Positions 10,104 to 33,955 of a stretch of 33,955 nucleotides of DNA are shown one piece after another. The stretch comes from a virus: IMG/VR virus record IMGVR_UViG_3300035670_000782, positions 1 through 33,955 of that record, one strand, 5' to 3'. The notes under the pieces were generated by a model. The model ran no database searches. It was given only the letters and a program-made list of their open reading frames with translations, and was not told the origin of the DNA. Each line of letters opens with the position of its first letter. Position 1 is the stretch's first letter. A program made the translations under genes and the position numbers.

Positions 10104-11492
10104 CTAGGTCACAACCTCGACCCAATTCGTTGTTTGGCTGTCGCTCACGGTCGCCCAATTCGGTACTTGGTTGTCGTCGATCGGCCCCCAGACCAAGGCC
10201 ACGCCAACCTGCCCAATCCCGGCAACCCCCACCGGGAACACACTACAGTTTCCGGTTATGACAACAGAACCAATCTGACCCGTCGCCGAGACGCCCGTCA
10301 CAGGAACCGGCGTAATCAGCTCTATGGTAACCGAGCCAACCGCTCCTGTCGCCTCCACACCAGTGACCACGACATTCGCATCACCGGCCACTAAGACCAA
10401 GCCGACTTCACTCGTTCCCTGAACACCCGTGACCGCCACAGGCGTAATCAGCTCTACGGTGACAGCGCCGACCTCGCCCGTTGCCTCGACGCCCGTTACA
10501 CTGACCTCGGCACCCGCTGCGACATCGACTTGTCCGACCTGCCCAGAACCCTGAACGCCCGTCAGACTAAAGTTGGCATCCCCCGTGATCGCGACGGAAC
10601 CAACCTGCCCATACCCAAACGCCAGATACGCCGCATATGCCGCAGGATTCTGCGTCATATAGGCGTTCATTACGTTTTCTATGTATGAGTCTTTGGTAGC
10701 GTTTCCAGTGGTTCCGTTTGTGTACCACTTGACGTAATCCAGAGCATCTGAACTGGTGACAGTACCTGTGTTGTTGATGTCACCAAGCGGACGACCACCG
10801 ATCGTCGTGTCTTTGAAAAGTGTTTTGCCCGGCTCGTTATTAGACGCAGCCTGAAGGATCGCTAGGCCAACGTCCTCCGTTCTGAAGGAGTAGACATCAA
10901 CAGCCGTTAAGAGGTCGACGGTGACTGCGCCAACGGCACCCGTACCAGAGACGCCTGTAGGAGAAGCGGAGGCTCCCGCCTCTATGGCAACCGCCCCCAC
11001 CTCTCCTGTCCCACTGACGCCCGTTAGAGGAACACCTGCTGCCCCTTCGACTACAACCGATCCGACCTCGCCCGTCCCACTGACGCCTGTTAACGAAACA
11101 TTCGCTTCTCCGGTGATGGTCGGCGATCCAACCTCCCCCGTTCCCGACACTCCAGTGACAGTGACTACAACGACACTGCCTGCTTCGACAACCCCAACTT
11201 CACCCGTGCCGTTGACGCCTGTCAGAGAAACACCTGCTGCCCCTTCGACTACAACCGCTCCGACCTCGCCCGTCCCACTGACGCCTGTCAGCGGAACGCC
11301 GATTCCTCCTTCGACTACAACCGCTCCGACCTCGCCCGTCCCACTGACACCTGTCAACGAAACATTGACATCTTCGAGTACTAGCGCCGTCCCAACCGCA
11401 CCTGTGGCCGCAATACCGGTGACGCTGACAGAGACATCAACCTCTGCCAGCGCGGAAAATGGCGCTTCCGCAAATGCGTAAAAACCAAACAT
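10104..11492 (-). CDS. tail protein with 22-residue Gly/Thr/Val repeats and a dockerin-like insert, 462 aa
   Basis: The N-terminus MFGFYAFAEAPFSAL resembles the start of a common uncultured-phage tail family. About 14 repeats of 22 residues follow (VSLTGVSGTGEVGAVVVEG-type), eight before and six after an unrelated insert at about residues 194-295. The insert contains GDINNTGTVTSSDAL (237-251), an EF-hand or dockerin-like calcium loop with Asp238, Asn240, Gly243 and Asp249 in suitable positions. The C-terminus ends with two copies of a short NW motif (VPNWATV, TNWVEV), a plausible trimer or attachment end. A stalk with calcium-stabilised branching is an inference. The start overlaps the upstream stop (TGATG). 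Confidence 0.82.
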   Translation of the reverse strand: MFGFYAFAEAPFSALAEVDVSVSVTGIAATGAVGTALVLEDVNVSLTGVSGTGEVGAVVVEGGIGVPLTGVSGTGEVGAVVVEGAAGVSLTGVNGTGEVGVVEAGSVVVVTVTGVSGTGEVGSPTITGEANVSLTGVSGTGEVGSVVVEGAAGVPLTGVSGTGEVGAVAIEAGASASPTGVSGTGAVGAVTVDLLTAVDVYSFRTEDVGLAILQAASNNEPGKTLFKDTTIGGRPLGDINNTGTVTSSDALDYVKWYTNGTTGNATKDSYIENVMNAYMTQNPAAYAAYLAFGYGQVGSVAITGDANFSLTGVQGSGQVGQVDVAAGAEVSVTGVEATGEVGAVTVELITPVAVTGVQGTSEVGLVLVAGDANVVVTGVEATGAVGSVTIELITPVPVTGVSATGQIGSVVITGNCSVFPVGVAGIGQVGVALVWGPIDDNQVPNWATVSDSQTTNWVEVVT

Positions 11493-25140: not shown

Positions 25141-25413
25141 TCAGTATATGCGAACTGGGCGCGTCCCATCCTTCTTCTTAACGATAGCCACCGCTTTCTG
25201 CACCCCCTTGGGCTGCGAAACCATCGTCCCGCCCTTGGCCATCCTGCGCGCCTTGCCCGCTTTCTCATAGGCAATGGCGGCCGCCTGCTCAGTAGCCTTC
25301 TTAACACTCTTCGGCTTGCTGGTGCCCAGCTTTCCAGACTCTTTGTACGACCGGACCATCTCCCCAATGTTGGAGCTGATGGTCTTTTGACTCGATCCAC
25401 GTTTAAGCGGCAT
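25141..25413 (-). CDS. small basic phage protein, 90 aa
   Basis: The start MPLKRGSSQKTISSNIGEMV at 25413 is chosen because AAAGGGGG lies upstream and the shorter form matches the family; the in-frame ATG at 25557 lies inside the portal gene. The body SYKESGKLGTSKPKSVKKATEQAAAIAYEKAGKARRMAKGG is Lys-rich. The pattern KKTISSNIGE...SKPKSxKKAxxQAAAIAY is a widespread small phage family. It begins inside the last codons of the portal gene (11-base overlap). Function unknown. Confidence 0.82.
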   Translation of the reverse strand: MPLKRGSSQKTISSNIGEMVRSYKESGKLGTSKPKSVKKATEQAAAIAYEKAGKARRMAKGGTMVSQPKGVQKAVAIVKKKDGTRPVRIY

Positions 25414-27730
25414 TTCTAACCCCCTTTGGCTGCATCGTCTTGATCGCCTGCAAGCGCAAACGCTCTTGGTTGATCTGATTGTTCTGCTGAAGCTTCTGCT
25501 GATCCATCCCAAGCTTCTGCTGATCCAACTGAATCCTCTGCTGGTCCGCCTGCGCACGCTGTTGTATCTCCATGCGCTTCAACTCGATCAACGGATCCTC
25601 TCCGCCCTCGCCCGAAAGCTTGCCCTGAAGGTCTCGCATCTCCTGCATGTAAGTCGCGACCTTGATCGCCACCATGCCCTCCTTCTGGATAGCCGAAACC
25701 AGACGCTCCGGGTCGGTTCCATACATCTGGAAGAGCTCCGCTTCCACATCCTCTTCCGCTTTCAAGCGAATGTGCTCCAAAATGTGCTTCTGCAACTCCA
25801 TCGCCGCAATCGGACTGGCCTGCAACATCGGCGAAAAACCCATCATCAAGTGCGCCGCGATGTGCGCATCATGCTGCTGGCCCGCAAAGGCCTTCAACTT
25901 CATCCCGTTCAACACATCGCTGTTCTCGGCTGCCGGATCACGGGGCATATTCGTGTTCTGAGGCAGCAAAATGCCGTCAATGTCACGAATATTAAGCGCC
26001 GCATACATCCGATAGTACGCCTCGTACATGTTGTGCATGTTTGGAGCGCTCTGAGCAAGCTGCAACTGCATCTGAGCAAGCTGAATCCGCTGCGCAGTGC
26101 TAAAAATGTTCGGATCAGCCACCGGCTGCACCGACACCATGCTGCTAAAGTCCGCTTTTTTGATGCGCCGACTCGATCCCGGCACGTCATACGGGTACTC
26201 ATTCGGCAAATAATGCGCAAAACCCTCAAAAAGGAGCTTGAATTCCAGCGTTTGAGCGTAATGCAGCCTCTTATGGATGCTCGACATGACCATCGAGCCA
26301 CGTTCCAAGAGCGCTAACGTCGTTCCGACCTGCGCATACTGGTTTCCGTCGCCCACTTGCATGTCGGCCGTGCTCGACAACCGCTTTCCAGCGTCCACCA
26401 AGAAGCCCAAAAGCGACATCAGCACCTGACTCGGCTCTTTATACGGCAGCGGCATCAGCGACGCACTCAATTCCGCCCCGCCCGCATCAATATCCCGCCA
26501 CTCACCCGGCTGAATTGGGTCAGAATCGTCCGCGATCCGCGCACCTTTTGCCTTAAATCCTGCCGGCAGGTTCGACAACGTCCCCGCATCAATCAACTGA
26601 CGCAACGCACTGGTCGCCGCCTTCGACAAACCACCGATCAAGTGCACAAAACCAAGGCCATAGGACCCCGGACCCTCGACCAAAACGTAGTGAACGAAGT
26701 AATTCCGACGGTTTTTTTGCTCGTCGTCCTCCCTCCAGTTCCTCCGAATCCCCACAACCTGATTCGTGTCCTCGGCCAACGTCACCACATACGGCAACTT
26801 CACCCCAGTCGGGTTGCCATCCTCGTCCTTGTCCTCAAATCCGGGAATGTCCAAGTCCACCAACTGCTCAAGCAGGAACACCTCGCCAATGTCATCGGTC
26901 GGCTGAACCCCAATCACCCGGTCAGTCGCACCCTGAATCGGACTCGGATCCGCCGGCGTCGCCGACGTATCGAGCGGAATGTCCAAGTACTCCCCCGCCA
27001 ACGCCCGCTTGCGGTACTCATTCGAGTCCATCGCAATCCGATGCGTGAGCCGTGGGCATTGGGACACGACACTCGAGCCGTTGTACGGGATGTACACGTC
27101 ATCGGCCAAGCACAACTTCGACACCATCCGCTTCAACTGATGGTCGTAATACACCTTCTTGAACGTCGAACCACCGTATCCGGTGTAAAACAAGAGCTGG
27201 TCAAACTCCGGCGTGTACTCCTCCATCACGCTCGTGATCTGATAGTTCATAAAGTCCTGCACGCGAGACGCCTGCTGATACTTCTCCACCGTCTCCTTGC
27301 CCATGATCTGCGTGCGCACGGGGCCTCCAGCCGGCATCAGCTCCTTCAACGCCTGCGCCTGAAACTGGATGATCGCCTCCATCAGCATCGGATGCGAAAC
27401 ACCCGCCGCGCCTCGGAAAGGCTTGGTCCGTTCTTCAAGCTTCAAGCCCAACAGATCAAGGCCCTTGGCGAACATGTTCTCCCAGTCGGACCGCGAACCC
27501 TTGTCCGCCTCGAACATCGCCGACACATCAATCGAAATCTTAGCCAAGACCTCCGGCTCAATGACACCCGCAAGGTTGGCGTAGAAGTCAACGTCTTCGG
27601 CCTCCGCCTCACCGATCGCGACCGTCGCACCACCGTCCTCGTCGATCTCGATCTCAATGTCAAGCGGCGCATCATCCAGCGCAATGATGCCCATGGACGG
27701 GGCAGGATTTACAGCTTTGTCAATCGGCAT
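25403..27730 (-). CDS. portal protein (P22-type, large), 775 aa
   Basis: The core (DWENMFAKGLDLLGLKLEERTKPFRGAAGVSHPMLMEAIIQFQAQALKEL in sequence; about 80-130) and the later VEKYQQASRVQDFMNYQI and FDQLLFYTGYGGSTFKKVYYD are recognisable phage portal segments. The length of 775 residues fits the P22 class. Around 690-770 the sequence is Gln-rich and coiled (QQKLGMDQQKLQQ repeats), as in the barrel of P22-like portals. The portal is the dodecameric ring through which DNA enters and leaves the head. It has AGGA six bases before the ATG. Function is assigned with confidence from family and gene order. Confidence 0.9.
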   Translation of the reverse strand: MPIDKAVNPAPSMGIIALDDAPLDIEIEIDEDGGATVAIGEAEAEDVDFYANLAGVIEPEVLAKISIDVSAMFEADKGSRSDWENMFAKGLDLLGLKLEERTKPFRGAAGVSHPMLMEAIIQFQAQALKELMPAGGPVRTQIMGKETVEKYQQASRVQDFMNYQITSVMEEYTPEFDQLLFYTGYGGSTFKKVYYDHQLKRMVSKLCLADDVYIPYNGSSVVSQCPRLTHRIAMDSNEYRKRALAGEYLDIPLDTSATPADPSPIQGATDRVIGVQPTDDIGEVFLLEQLVDLDIPGFEDKDEDGNPTGVKLPYVVTLAEDTNQVVGIRRNWREDDEQKNRRNYFVHYVLVEGPGSYGLGFVHLIGGLSKAATSALRQLIDAGTLSNLPAGFKAKGARIADDSDPIQPGEWRDIDAGGAELSASLMPLPYKEPSQVLMSLLGFLVDAGKRLSSTADMQVGDGNQYAQVGTTLALLERGSMVMSSIHKRLHYAQTLEFKLLFEGFAHYLPNEYPYDVPGSSRRIKKADFSSMVSVQPVADPNIFSTAQRIQLAQMQLQLAQSAPNMHNMYEAYYRMYAALNIRDIDGILLPQNTNMPRDPAAENSDVLNGMKLKAFAGQQHDAHIAAHLMMGFSPMLQASPIAAMELQKHILEHIRLKAEEDVEAELFQMYGTDPERLVSAIQKEGMVAIKVATYMQEMRDLQGKLSGEGGEDPLIELKRMEIQQRAQADQQRIQLDQQKLGMDQQKLQQNNQINQERLRLQAIKTMQPKGVRNAA

Positions 27731-28172: not shown

Positions 28173-31100
28173 TTAAGCAGCCATCAGTCTATCAAGCTGG
28201 GCCCGCGCGGTCGAGGCGTTGACGAGGCCGCCTTGGGCAAAGTTCTCGCCCACAATGTTGCCGTAGGCATCGTACTTCAGACGCTGGCCCGCCGGGACGA
28301 TCGCGTTATGCAACTCCTGAATCTGATCCCCGGTCAACCAGCCATGGTCCGGGACCGACATGTTCAGCGCCTCAATCTTGCGCTGTTCCGCATCATTGAA
28401 CACGTCGGTGTAGCGCCTCAGGCCCGCGTTCCGTACATCATTGATCACGGACCAATTGCCGCTCTTGATGAAGTCCTGCACAAAGGGGAGGTAGGCCTCT
28501 TTTGGAGCGGCGTTGCCCTTGCCTTTGATCTGCTCGATTGAAGCGGGTGCAGGACCAAAGCGCTCTGTCATGACCCGATCAAAAGCCTCTTGCATCTGTT
28601 GCTGGTTCTGGGGGGTGTAAGGCGGAAAAATACCCAACTCTTGTTGAAGTGATTCCCTTAACGCAAACATCTGGTCTCGAGGAAGTTTTAAGAGGGCTGT
28701 GCCCGTATCCCACTTCTGCGGAGTGACCTCAATCGTCACATGCGGCTCGCCCTTGGCATCCCGCAGTGAAAAGATCTGAGTCTTCCCTTCCAAAACCTCC
28801 GGGCAATAGCTGCCCACGCAATGGCCCATGACCCGGCCCTCATAATCAAGCGCCTCTTCGGTCTTCTTGGCATCTGCCTTGTCATGCAGCTCAAGCCACT
28901 TGTAACCTTGGTCATATTGCTTTACAACCGGCAGGTTGGCCTGAGCCTGAAGCGCGGCCCGTGCCGCCTCTTTCGCCTTTTCCTGATCGTATTCAGCCGT
29001 CCGACGAACCGCCTGCTCCATCGATACCTTGCTCAACTGCTCAGGACGTAGCCGGCCAGACTGAAGATCATCCCGAAGAACGTCCACAATGTGATCAAAG
29101 CCCAAGTCTCGCGGCTCACCGCCATAAGTGTAGACCTGCGTATTAGGATCAAGTTTCGTGAGCCACGGTGCGTCGTCCACGACCGAGGACAGCCCTCGGC
29201 GGTACTCTTCTTGGGTCAGCGGGCGCGTGTACATACTGGCCGGATAGCCCTGAATGGCAGCGTCAGACAATCCTTCCCATGCTTTTGCCTCAGGACTCCG
29301 GGCAATCCCCTCTTCCGGCACACCCATGCGTTGACGATCCTCAGAAACCCGATACGGCAGAATGAAATCCCCCAGTCGCACCTGATCCGGATTCAAATGT
29401 GTGACCCCCTGCTCCGCCAACGCCCTAACAGGGTCTTCCGGAGTGGCCATCTCCTTTTTGATGTAGTTCGTCAGGTTCCGATCAATCCAAGAATTCAAGG
29501 CGGCCTCATTCTTTAGCCTCGGAATGGCCCTCTCAACCTGAGCACGCGTCTCATCCGACATCCGGGCCATCACCTCTGGCGGATATACCTTGGCAAGTTC
29601 CTCCAGACTTTCCGCCGCCGTGCGATCACGCTTGAGCCCTTGCAGCTCCCCGGAAATCGACTTCTCCAGCCAATTTCCGCCCTTCGGCTTGATGACGTGC
29701 GACGCACCCGCCGGGCCCAGCGCTTGGTTGTACCGCTGGAAGTCCTCAGCCAACATCCGCGCGGCTTCCCCCGCCTTCTCCGCGCCCTTGGCCGCTGCAC
29801 GCACTGGTGCCGCCGGGTTGACAAGACTGCTGCCGAGGTCAGCCGCTGAGTATAAGGCGCGCTGCGTGGGGTCGGTCGGCGGCTCAGGCCTTACCCCCAA
29901 GTCCGTCATCTTCTGCTTGATCCAGTCACTGCCCATGACCGGCTGCTTCGACCCCAACCCCGCCGGCGTCAACAACATGTTCAAAAGATCCACCGGCGCA
30001 CCCGCCATGTTGTACGGCATGTTCGCCACACCCTGCAACACCGCACGGTTCAACGCCTCATTCTCCTCCGGCGTCGCCTTCTTGCGAGTGCGGCTTTGCA
30101 AAGGCTTGCCTGACCTGATGGGGTCGTCTCGGGCGTTGAGCTCGTCAAGATAGCTCCGCGCGTCCAATGTTTCACGTGAAACATCGCCGCCCTCGGCGCG
30201 CTTGATCGGACGAACTCTGGAAGAGGACTTCTTAGAACGAGTCGGCCTTTTGGGAGCCACCGAAGCAGCCTGCGGCGGCGCGACATACGGCGGGACGTAC
30301 ATCTCATGCGCCGATTGACGCATCAGCTCGTCCGCATACTTGGCCCCAAACTCCTTCAAAATCTCCAACTGCGTGGTCAGCGTCGGGTCCACATGCAAGC
30401 CGCCTCGCGTCGGCTTTGTCCCGCCCTTGACAGTCTCAGGTAGATCTTTTGTGGAAAACATAATGCCCGCGCCCCACGCCCCGAGCTCCTTCTGGTTAGT
30501 CCTGTACCGCCCCCACTCAGCATCTTTCGGATCCTCTGCGGTCTGCATGGACTTGTACCACTCCGGTGACAAGCGCTTTGCGTCGTCAGGCCGGGTCTGC
30601 TCGCCCAGATTCCTGTAAAGCGCCACAAACTGCTTGGCCAGCGGCGTGTCAGGATTCTTACGGGCATGCTCATACAGCCGCTCCAATGAGTCATCCACCG
30701 CATGCGTCATCTCATGCGCAAGAGAGCGCTGTAAGTTTTTAGCCTCTCGCCCCATGAACACCTTGCCATAAGGGCCCATCTCAGCGCCGTAAGCCGACGT
30801 CGTATTCCGAGTCTCAAAATCTGGGACTCCGCCTCGAACAGACTGAACAAGACGAGACTTCTCGTTGATGTACCTCTGCTGCTCCGGTGTCATGCGCTCA
30901 AAATAGTTGACCGCCCGAGTGTAGTCATCCTCCATCGGAGGAAGACCCACGCGCGGCTCGACAGGAATGCGAAAACTATCAAGCTGCGCCCGCGCAGAGA
31001 AGTTCTCATCTTGCCGGGCCTCGCCGCCCTTCTGAAAGTTCATCGTCGGCTCTTTCCGCTCCTGAGACCGGGGCTTGCCTCCGCGCAACCGGTCCAACAT

Positions 31101-32105
31101 CGCCGCCGCACCACGCACGGCTCGGGGCAACCCCGGCAACAACATCTCCGGATAAACCGGCTGCACCGCCTGCTCACGCTCCATGCCCTTCAACCGCTGC
31201 GCATTCACCTGCGCATCCGCATCCCGCTCCGCATCCTCATAATTCTTCAAACGCAAAAGCGACTCGTAAAACGCAATCTCCTTCCCCAACCGGTCCATCT
31301 CAGCACGGTCCTGCTCCACCGCCTTCTGCACCTCCTCATTCACCGTGCCCTGAATCAACTCATCTTCTTCGTACTTCCTCAAACCCGCCATGTGCCGATC
31401 CAACTCCCGCAACGCCTCCTGATTCCGCTCAAACGGCACCATGTCCGAGGTGTACGGCTGCAAATCCCTCTTCTGCCGAGTGTCCAACTCCGATGAAATG
31501 TCTCGAAGCGACTGCTGATAGTCTTTTTCTATCGCCTGCGTGGCGTCATAGTATTCCTTGTTGATCCCCTCCTGCGCAGGATCCCGATACAGGTCCGACT
31601 CCTTCATGCCCCGGGGCAGGCTAAGGCGGCCTCGCGCCTCTTCGGCGGTCTGCGCCCGATAAGGCTTACCCCGCCAGTCAAACGTCTCACGGCCCAAGGC
31701 CCGCGCAGCCTGAAAGGCCGCGCCAAAAGAAATTGACGGCTCCCCAGTCTTCGCCAGCAAAAGCGTCATCTCCGCCTGCTCAAGCATCGGATTGGAACGG
31801 GCCTCCCCACCCGCCTGAAACCGCTTCGCCAACAACGTCGGCTTGTCCATGCTCTCTTCCAAGAGCTTCCGAGACTTGGTCTTCTCCTTCTCAGGAACCT
31901 TGGTCAACGGCTCAAGGTCCATGGCCATGCCCTTGCCAAAACCCTTCGCTGACTTCGGCTCCAAAGGACGCTGACGAGTACGCTGGGTCGTGCGCCTAGC
32001 GGTCGCCTTGGGCGCTGCCAGCAACTCTTCCAAAAGCTGCTTCGACTCACTGTCATACTCTTCACCAAGCATGGCCCACGCCCCCTTGTCAAGACCTCCC
32101 CGCAT
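28173..32105 (-). CDS. polydomain ejection-type protein with HEMTH metallopeptidase and PcfJ-like segments, 1310 aa
   Basis: Start at 32105 has GAGG at proper spacing just after the terminase stop. Residues 1-90 are basic/charged. A long coiled-coil region covers about 180-310. Residues 464-468 are HEMTH (AHEMTHAVDD), the zinc-binding motif of many metallopeptidases, in a segment at about 370-600. Residues 690-770 (VANMPYNMAGAPVDLLNML, then YSAADLGSSLVNPAAPVRAAAKG) are hydrophobic and Ala-rich. Residues 1093-1127 (MGHCVGSYC, then IFSLRDAKGEPHVTIEV) match a PcfJ-like signature. A di-glycine motif recurs at about 99, 360, 639 and 1292 and may mark segment borders. Large polydomain proteins like this occur in phages and mobile elements, and are thought to be delivered into the host with DNA. 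The peptidase could act on phage or host proteins. A perfect parS palindrome lies inside the gene. Confidence 0.82.
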   Translation of the reverse strand: MRGGLDKGAWAMLGEEYDSESKQLLEELLAAPKATARRTTQRTRQRPLEPKSAKGFGKGMAMDLEPLTKVPEKEKTKSRKLLEESMDKPTLLAKRFQAGGEARSNPMLEQAEMTLLLAKTGEPSISFGAAFQAARALGRETFDWRGKPYRAQTAEEARGRLSLPRGMKESDLYRDPAQEGINKEYYDATQAIEKDYQQSLRDISSELDTRQKRDLQPYTSDMVPFERNQEALRELDRHMAGLRKYEEDELIQGTVNEEVQKAVEQDRAEMDRLGKEIAFYESLLRLKNYEDAERDADAQVNAQRLKGMEREQAVQPVYPEMLLPGLPRAVRGAAAMLDRLRGGKPRSQERKEPTMNFQKGGEARQDENFSARAQLDSFRIPVEPRVGLPPMEDDYTRAVNYFERMTPEQQRYINEKSRLVQSVRGGVPDFETRNTTSAYGAEMGPYGKVFMGREAKNLQRSLAHEMTHAVDDSLERLYEHARKNPDTPLAKQFVALYRNLGEQTRPDDAKRLSPEWYKSMQTAEDPKDAEWGRYRTNQKELGAWGAGIMFSTKDLPETVKGGTKPTRGGLHVDPTLTTQLEILKEFGAKYADELMRQSAHEMYVPPYVAPPQAASVAPKRPTRSKKSSSRVRPIKRAEGGDVSRETLDARSYLDELNARDDPIRSGKPLQSRTRKKATPEENEALNRAVLQGVANMPYNMAGAPVDLLNMLLTPAGLGSKQPVMGSDWIKQKMTDLGVRPEPPTDPTQRALYSAADLGSSLVNPAAPVRAAAKGAEKAGEAARMLAEDFQRYNQALGPAGASHVIKPKGGNWLEKSISGELQGLKRDRTAAESLEELAKVYPPEVMARMSDETRAQVERAIPRLKNEAALNSWIDRNLTNYIKKEMATPEDPVRALAEQGVTHLNPDQVRLGDFILPYRVSEDRQRMGVPEEGIARSPEAKAWEGLSDAAIQGYPASMYTRPLTQEEYRRGLSSVVDDAPWLTKLDPNTQVYTYGGEPRDLGFDHIVDVLRDDLQSGRLRPEQLSKVSMEQAVRRTAEYDQEKAKEAARAALQAQANLPVVKQYDQGYKWLELHDKADAKKTEEALDYEGRVMGHCVGSYCPEVLEGKTQIFSLRDAKGEPHVTIEVTPQKWDTGTALLKLPRDQMFALRESLQQELGIFPPYTPQNQQQMQEAFDRVMTERFGPAPASIEQIKGKGNAAPKEAYLPFVQDFIKSGNWSVINDVRNAGLRRYTDVFNDAEQRKIEALNMSVPDHGWLTGDQIQELHNAIVPAGQRLKYDAYGNIVGENFAQGGLVNASTARAQLDRLMAA
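30167..30184. promoter_or_regulatory. parS-like ParB binding site (perfect palindrome)
   Basis: ATGTTTCACGTGAAACAT is an 18-bp perfect palindrome. Its inner 16 bases, TGTTTCACGTGAAACA, equal the canonical bacterial chromosomal parS sequence bound by ParB. It encodes D-V-S-R-E-T at residues 641-646 of the polydomain protein. The codons GTT TCA CGT GAA ACA all end in A or T, whereas the neighbours (GGC, GAC, GCG, CGG, AGC) mostly end in G or C. That is consistent with selection on the DNA word rather than the protein. A phage ParB is not present in the window, so any binding would be by a host protein or by one encoded elsewhere. Confidence 0.75.
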
Positions 32106-32113
32106 TCTATCCC

Positions 32114-33580
32114 TCAGTAGTACTCCGGAACAAGCTCCCGGCCCACGGACTCCGACACATCATCCGTCTGCAAACTAATAAAGTTCCCCTGCCGAAACCG
32201 CATCATCGCCATCGTCGTCGAATCCACCATGTCATCATTGTCCCCATTCGGAAACGCCGCACACTCTTCCACCAACTCCTCCGACCAATCACGGTCCGGG
32301 GCCCATACCATCCCCGCCTCAAACATCGGCGCAACAGAATTCGCCCGACTAATCTTGTCCGTCCCAGCCCGCCTTCCCCCCGGACTGTACAAAGTCACAG
32401 GAATACTCATCCTCCTCAACTCTTGCTGCAACGTAATCCCCGTCGCCTTCGCCTCAATCAACACATTGTCCGGCTGCCAGTGCTCATACTGCTCCTTCGC
32501 CACCCGCTTCAACTCCGGAAAGTCCCACCGACCACGCTTCACGTCCAACAAAATAATGTTCGCCCCACTGTCTTCCGACGGATAAAACACACCCCACGTC
32601 GTAATGACAGAATAATCCGCCGTCTCCTTCTTCGAGTACGCCGTGTCCATCGACTGAATAATGTAATTCACTAACGGCGGATCATCATGCGGCCACACCC
32701 GCCACCACTCCCTCTTCAAAATCGCACCCTCATCATTCGTCGGCTGCTGCTGATACATCGCATTCCACTTCTGCACCGACAACGACGCCTTAACCCCCTC
32801 CAACTCCTCCAACTTCCAAAACTCAGGCCACAACGGCTTCCCAGAAGGCAAAATCGCCGGAAACTCAATCACCTCCCACTTGTCCGCGTTATGCGAAGAC
32901 TGCGCCTTCAATAACCGCGCCGTCAAATCCTTCGTCCCCCACCTCGTCATCACCACCACAATCGCACCACCCGGCTGCAACCGCGTCCTCGGCCCAGAGA
33001 TATACCACTCCCACGCATTCTCCAACGCCAAATCACTCATCGCATCCTGCTCGCTATGAGGATCGTCAATAATCAAAACGTCCGCACCCCGACCAGTCAT
33101 CGCACCACCCACACCCACCGCAAAATACTCCCCTCCACGGTTCGTATCCCACCTCCCAGCCGCCTTACTGTCCGCCTTCAAAGTCACATCCGGAAACAAC
33201 TCCTTGTAACTGGACTGATCCATCAAATCCCGAACCTTCCGACCAAAACGAACCGCTAACTCACTGTTGTGCGTCGCCTCAATGGCCTTGGTTCGCGGCT
33301 CACGGCCCATGAGAAACGCAGGCAAGAGATAGGACGCAAACTCACTTTTTGTGTGCCGAGGAGGCATGTTGATGATCAACCGCTTCAACGTGCCATTGGC
33401 AATCCTGTCGAAAGCCGACGCCATTTTCGCGTGATGCGCGCCAAGGATCGCGGACGGCCAGACGTACTTGACGAAGTCGATGAAGTTGGATCTGGCACGG
33501 TCCTGCGCTTCAAGCTGCGAGAGCCGAAGCTCCAACCGAAGACGTTCCGCTTCTAGCTCTTCAGGGATCAAATTTGACAT
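32114..33580 (-). CDS. terL: terminase large subunit (DNA packaging ATPase and nuclease), 488 aa
   Basis: ATG at 33580 (MSNLIPEELEAERLRLEL) is preferred over the upstream in-frame ATG at 33625, because AAAGAGA lies at correct spacing. Residues 72-79 (MPPRHTKS) are the Walker A-like ATP motif, 168-175 (VLIIDDPH) the Walker B with the catalytic Asp pair, and 208-214 (VVVMTRW) the coupling motif. The C-terminal RNase-H-like nuclease shows MDTAYS (Asp312), LIEAKATG (Glu376) and NGDNDDMVDS (Asp450/453). The enzyme cuts concatemeric DNA and pumps it through the portal encoded nearby. No small terminase gene is seen in the window; it may lie past the right edge. Confidence 0.92.
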   Translation of the reverse strand: MSNLIPEELEAERLRLELRLSQLEAQDRARSNFIDFVKYVWPSAILGAHHAKMASAFDRIANGTLKRLIINMPPRHTKSEFASYLLPAFLMGREPRTKAIEATHNSELAVRFGRKVRDLMDQSSYKELFPDVTLKADSKAAGRWDTNRGGEYFAVGVGGAMTGRGADVLIIDDPHSEQDAMSDLALENAWEWYISGPRTRLQPGGAIVVVMTRWGTKDLTARLLKAQSSHNADKWEVIEFPAILPSGKPLWPEFWKLEELEGVKASLSVQKWNAMYQQQPTNDEGAILKREWWRVWPHDDPPLVNYIIQSMDTAYSKKETADYSVITTWGVFYPSEDSGANIILLDVKRGRWDFPELKRVAKEQYEHWQPDNVLIEAKATGITLQQELRRMSIPVTLYSPGGRRAGTDKISRANSVAPMFEAGMVWAPDRDWSEELVEECAAFPNGDNDDMVDSTTMAMMRFRQGNFISLQTDDVSESVGRELVPEYY

Positions 33581-33624
33581 AACGCATCTCTTTCTAAACA
33601 AAAAGTATGGGGTGGGGTGCAGCA

Positions 33625-33653
33625 ATCATAAAACAAGGGGGTGGTTTTATAAA
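33625..33653 (-). promoter_or_regulatory. possible promoter for the terminase operon
   Basis: On the minus strand TTTATA (33648-33653) and TATGAT (33625-33630) are separated by 17 bases, with four and five of six consensus matches. Transcription would start near 33618, about 38 bases before the terminase ATG. It is the only plausible promoter in this leader; the surrounding repeats add uncertainty. Confidence 0.3.
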
Positions 33654-33663
33654 ACAGGGGTGG
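33628..33663. repeat. tandem near-identical 15-17-bp direct repeats
   Basis: ATAAAACAAGGGGGTGG (33628-33644) is repeated as ATAAAACAGGGGTGG (33649-33663), with a 21-base period. The repeats overlap the candidate terminase promoter and could be a protein-binding array or slippage product. Confidence 0.5.
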
Positions 33664-33828
33664 GGCCCCCTTAAAGCTGCCGGGAAAGGGGGACCCAATT
33701 CTGTTTTGGGCAGCATTTACCGTATGAAATCGGGCTAAAGCCTGCGCAGCAAGCGCACCGGCCGTTTTTTTGGGCCCGGGGGCCGTGGGGGGTTGGTCTG
33801 GCCGGGAGTGCCGGGGACCGTGGGCCGG

Positions 33829-33955
33829 GGGCGACGACCAGGCGGGCGACGACCAGGCGGGCGACGACCAGGCGGGCGACGACCAGGCGGGCGACGACCA
33901 GGCGGGCGACGACCAGGCGGGCGACGACCAGGCGGGCGACGACCAGGCGGGCGAC
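33829..33955. repeat. 15-bp tandem repeat at the window end (8.5 copies)
   Basis: The unit GGGCGACGACCAGGC is repeated eight times perfectly plus seven bases to the end of the window. It has no spacer structure and is not a CRISPR array. It is preceded by a GC-rich, repeat-like run (33772-33828). It may be a coding minisatellite (for example RPPGR, GDDQA or SPAWS units in different frames), a variable non-coding repeat, or an assembly end artefact. Confidence 0.9.

Follow-up and report, generated by a model that had tools for sequence, protein, structure and literature searches.

The window analyzed here spans 33,955 bp and is only a fragment, since phage genomes of this type reach about 61 kb when complete. 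Close to its right end, on the minus strand, lies the terminase large subunit gene terL (32114–33625; phrog_38, E 6e-113), and relatives suggest that the true start of this gene is an internal ATG at about 33580. Directly downstream of terL is an ORF of 1310 amino acids (28173–32105, minus strand), which stands between terL and the portal protein gene (25403–27730, minus strand; phrog_1216). The late module begins with terL, and the portal gene follows as its next structural gene. A GroES-like gene is also present in the window. The original prediction described the 1310 amino acid ORF as a virion gene. This label could not be confirmed; the product has a C-terminal domain of the PcfJ-like type (Pfam PF14284, E 6.7e-9), and the corresponding product of DSL-LC04 bears a PcfJ-like annotation. 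The region upstream of terL (33626–33955) ends with the contig and includes, at 33829–33955, a tandem array in which the 15-bp unit GGGCGACGACCAGGC is repeated perfectly 8.5 times. Similar GC-rich repeats are seen upstream of terL in relatives, and this array region is perhaps part of the packaging start region.

The TerL of the window is 79% identical to that of DSL-LC04 (61.5 kb) and 56–61% identical to those of the pelagiphages HTVC023P and HTVC027P. This related TerL and the shared order of the portal, GroES-like and capsid genes place the phage among the HTVC023P-type podoviruses. A near-identity search of INPHARED with the right end of the window as query gave no match. Identification of the host from integrated copies was also attempted and was abandoned, as the genome scan gave only two contigs (L212 and L213), from one Neomarinimicrobiota MAG, whose TerL is 61% identical to that of the window. 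These contigs lack parS and may represent either a host signal or contamination.

Within the PcfJ-like ORF, an 18-bp palindrome, ATGTTTCACGTGAAACAT (30167–30184), encloses TGTTTCACGTGAAACA at 30168–30183. As the original prediction had stated, this is the exact parS 16-mer, and it fits perfectly the chromosomal parS consensus TGTTNCACGTGAAACA, which is common to Bacillus, Caulobacter and Burkholderia (PMC7022226). It is the sole match in the window when up to three mismatches are allowed; 11 of 100 shuffled sequences contained any such match. The site is written by the codons GAT GTT TCA CGT GAA ACA, which encode the peptide DVSRET, and given this peptide and the codon usage of the gene itself, the probability of this codon set is ~7e-5. 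Selection at the DNA level, which had been proposed from these codons, is supported by L011, the only relative that has DVSRET. In L011 all six site codons are the same while the following three codons are changed, so that the palindrome survived the proposed comparison with homologues that keep the peptide.

To place the site in a wider context, 80 relative loci were fetched by TerL sequence alone, blind to parS. The resulting 81 rows, including the window, contain five with too little upstream sequence and four without a site. In 72 of the 76 informative rows a parS-type palindrome (up to two mismatches to GTTYCACGTGRAAC) adjoins terL, either between -56 and +36 of the terL start or +2.0 to +3.4 kb downstream, where all offsets are counted from the position of the terL start that is projected from the window. 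Four position classes can be distinguished. Class A sites are found at -42 to -56 (40 rows), class B sites at -3 (10 rows) and class C sites at +30 to +36 (17 rows), whilst class D sites are located in the ORF downstream of terL at +1989 to +3443 (the window, L011, L044, L084 and L086). The copy in the window lies ~3.4 kb downstream of the terL start (offset +3443). In the class C examples that were read, the site is written by the final codons of an HNH-like ORF, and this ORF stops where terL truly starts. One such HNH-like ORF, at L064:9672–10004, lies directly upstream of terL and its last codons write a parS-like site; replacement of the HNH-like ORF region seems to move the site. Most relatives thus have the site a short way upstream of terL, and it is seldom found in the PcfJ-like gene. 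Conservation of its position inside this gene was considered and rejected, as most relatives have no site there, and the tie between the site and this gene or a virion protein that the original prediction implied is not supported; the copy in the window is a relocated one. Three related phages (L029/L031, L076 and L090) have no site, nor do the known relatives HTVC023P, 023Pt_psg01 and DSL-LC04, and the site is therefore not essential.

Analysis of the position classes on the TerL tree indicates that 22 changes are needed to explain them. The place of the site can differ even when TerL is identical, as in the pairs L062/L064 and L065/L071. Loss of the upstream site, of which the window is an example, goes together with a site in the downstream gene. 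The nearest relatives of the window, L012–L015, have their site upstream of terL, whereas the window and L011 have none upstream and carry it in the downstream ORF. L012 and L013 lack a downstream copy, since a difference of 18 nt takes out half of the palindrome. That the site has been kept while it moved suggests that what is needed close to terL is the site itself, and not a protein or an ordinary operator.

The enrichment was measured against permuted palindromes that keep the base composition. At up to one mismatch, GTTYCACGTGRAAC is found in 51 of the 80 freshwater loci, whereas the 1259 permuted patterns average 0.44 loci, with the provisos that two of these patterns (GYTTCAC... and GTYTCAC...) contain parS and hence are not true controls, and that the statistics ignore kinship among loci. 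A marine set seeded with HTVC027P gave degenerate parS at the same threshold in only 5 of 79 loci (control 0.21), and a second TerL family gave 14 of 80 loci with 30 sites (control 0.38). The class A site columns hold 1.89 bits compared with about 0.9 in the flanks, a descriptive value as the rows were chosen by their site match. The observed variants, with a variable first base and T or C at position 5, agree with the chromosomal consensus, and in the class A copies variation is confined to these tolerated positions (the outer base and position 5). Copies of classes B and C have a weaker second half-site, and those of class C have one weak half-site.

By looking at the longer relatives, the number of sites per genome can also be estimated. 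Eight of nine records of 48–65 kb (G009, G014, G019, G025, G029, G032, G034 and G037) carry one strong site each and the ninth (G013) carries none; the search for further copies that had been suggested thus showed no second copy, either in the window or in these near-complete relatives. Because the window is a fragment, the absence of ParB was checked in relatives. No ParB_N domain was found above the cut-off in 23 relative records and no HTH_ParB domain in 20, several of the contigs being partial, while ParB was detected by both searches in control genomes. The original prediction had reported no ParA or ParB gene, and for ParB this extends to the relatives (0/23 and 0/20 records). On these searches of 23 and 20 records, a ParB encoded by the phage was rejected as the reader of the site. 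The near-complete relatives combine the presence of parS with the absence of a phage ParB, as expected of phages that exploit the ParB of the host, and on the ParB search (23 and 20 records) they do not resemble phage-plasmids with their own ParABS; the window, being a fragment, is judged through them.

The same 16-mer is found well beyond this group. IMG/VR contains the exact sequence in at least 120 stretches and INPHARED in 286 records, compared with 5 and 0, respectively, for a control palindrome of the same composition. A TerL homologue was present in the fetched part of 35 of the 120 listed IMG/VR stretches, and ParB_N exceeded the cut-off in 1 of the 50 stretches tested. Among the IMG/VR matches listed, 45% of the copies are intergenic according to a simple ORF caller, against 9% for random positions. 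Cultured carriers include the Pelagibacter phage HTVC027P, with CGTTTCACGTGAAACA (one mismatch) between two genes that converge, 4 kb away from terL; B103, with an exact parS inside gene 15, adjoining the packaging gene 16, and a second copy, with one mismatch, at 10120; Vibrio phage phi 3, with parS in both terminal repeats; and DSS3P8, Gordonia phage Woes and Butyrivibrio phage Arian. Escherichia and Klebsiella are outside the ten commonest names among the INPHARED records with the 16-mer, and so account for at most six records each, out of at least 387 and at least 449 phage records in the collection. Enterobacteriaceae lack chromosomal par genes (PMC7022226), and the scarcity of the site in phages of these two genera fits a need for a host ParB.

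In the second TerL family all 30 sites are located 5' of terL, with up to five per phage. Five exact parS copies were seen in L308 (-979 to -67) and in L309 (-1459 to -687), upstream of a terL whose product is 27% identical to that of the window. A variant, TGTTTCACATGAAACA, recurs upstream of terL in L314, L330, L331 and L352 of this family and possibly reflects a different ParB specificity.

Based on the identity of the sequence, its enrichment, the single copy per genome, its maintenance through relocation and the lack of a detectable phage ParB, the palindrome can be read with good confidence as a functional parS at which the chromosomal ParB of the host would load, and which this group of lytic podovirus-like phages keeps as a single cis-acting site beside terL. 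ParB is known to bind parS, to close as a CTP clamp and to spread (PMC12704722). If this established biochemistry applies here, host ParB dimers would recognize the phage site, close as a CTP clamp and slide onto the neighboring phage DNA. The ParB-coated phage DNA might then be treated like the origin region of the host: ParA would tether and move it and SMC would fold it, and the infecting or replicating phage genome would be held on the nucleoid and not be lost before lysis.

Capture by the ParA/SMC segregation machinery of the host, in the way that Spo0J serves phi29-type phages in sporulation, is the use that we tentatively favor, as a serious candidate that falls short of being probable. 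It is favored because it corresponds to the usual role of ParB and parS and because the phi29 genome depends on Spo0J to become entrapped in the spore (Meijer et al. 2005, cited by PMC9437464). Yet tethering would need no place at the side of terL, and this place is kept.

The main alternative is a local function, in which host ParB does bind but, after loading next to terL, would spread across the region where the late module or packaging begins. Late genes might be silenced until phage copies outnumber the host ParB, or the DNA might be marked or condensed for packaging. Such local control is possible though not likely, and is nearly as plausible as capture because the site stays beside terL. 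The sites in the clade of the window are confined to the surroundings of terL, with classes A, B and C at or just 5' of it and class D within 3.5 kb, and the multiple sites of the second TerL family all lie on its 5' side. In addition, ParB is reported to repress parS-adjacent promoters in Pseudomonas aeruginosa (PMC5521831). However, the HTVC027P site, between convergent genes and at a distance from terL, does not fit, the sites of B103, Woes, DSS3P8 and Vibrio phi 3 are elsewhere in the genome, and many contigs are short, so that distant sites would escape notice there. A broader version is more doubtful still. In it, lytic phages of many unrelated groups would independently keep the host parS as stolen centromeres that load host ParB onto entering phage DNA, and in the clade of the window ParB spreading at the terL side would time late genes or packaging as a copy-number sensor.

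Titration, which the original prediction listed among its options, would mean that host ParB is sequestered on phage genomes as they replicate and that the segregation of the host chromosome is disturbed. Late in infection the phage copies would presumably outnumber the parS sites of the host, but a decoy is expected to occur as arrays placed anywhere, and not as one site per genome beside terL. Arrays of parS do exist, though in other phages, and with a single copy per genome titration of ParB/SMC is improbable. Slightly less credit can be given to the option that the palindrome resembles parS by convergence and is the operator or cleavage site of a protein encoded by the phage, which could be a regulator, an HNH nuclease or a highly divergent ParB. 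The overlap of class C sites with the end of the HNH-like ORF just upstream of terL is in its favor. Against it, unrelated phages with a wide range of hosts carry an identical 16-mer, which varies in the way that chromosomal parS does. Some of its positions would also not suit an operator, and the searches of 23 and 20 records detected no ParB domain. A chance match or hitch-hiking codons, conceivable for one 16-mer in one gene of one genome, can practically be dismissed in view of the permuted and control palindromes (51 loci against a mean of 0.44 over 1259 patterns) and of a site kept through repeated relocation.

ParB-based chromosome segregation is nearly universal in bacteria. Compared with the parS of chromosomal ParABS systems, the phage site has an identical 16-mer and shares the degeneracy of TGTTNCACGTGAAACA (PMC7022226), but is found on a lytic phage genome without a detectable ParB. 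The closest parallel is that of the phi29-type Bacillus phages, lytic phages that also exploit a host segregation protein (Spo0J is the ParB of B. subtilis); this case is linked to sporulation. The phi29-related B103 likewise has its exact parS next to a packaging gene. These phages belong to another family and their sites are dispersed, whereas the clade of the window keeps one site beside terL and has aquatic, probably non-sporulating hosts. P1-type phage-plasmids also carry a ParABS-type centromere on a phage genome. They encode ParA and ParB with their own site, unlike the clade of the window, which has the host-type site only. Lytic phages of Alphaproteobacteria that carry binding sites for CtrA, another cell-cycle protein of the host, use them for lytic deferment (PMC9437464); however, CtrA is a transcription factor acting at promoters and ParB is a CTP clamp and segregation factor.

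The host parS is therefore ordinary as a sequence and unusual in its setting, and exploitation of the phi29/Spo0J kind is already known. What is new relative to it is the breadth across phages, which is unreported in the literature that could be searched; the same literature gave no report of parS in this phage group. A single, maintained and relocating parS in widespread lytic freshwater phages, together with the enrichment of the 16-mer in unrelated phages, suggests that recruitment of host ParB is a common phage strategy. It offers a new handle on the location of phage DNA after entry, and cultured phage and host pairs are available in HTVC027P with Pelagibacter HTCC1062 and in B103 with B. 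subtilis.

Some further observations were made in the collections. Exact parS copies in INPHARED were seen in 87 Listeria, 49 Microbacterium, 29 Arthrobacter and 25 Gordonia records. The 116,662-bp record L177/G098 has two clusters with 24 parS copies in all between 91,700 and 112,396 (record coordinates), 23 with the sequence TGTTTCACGTGGAACA, and could be a phage-plasmid or a mis-binned piece of chromosome. A 5.9-kb inovirus genome from rodent faeces (L385; PQ006149.1, bajarodino virus 6) has six exact parS copies at 635, 662, 1414, 2857, 4096 and 5628, five of them intergenic and one in a gap of ~40 bp.
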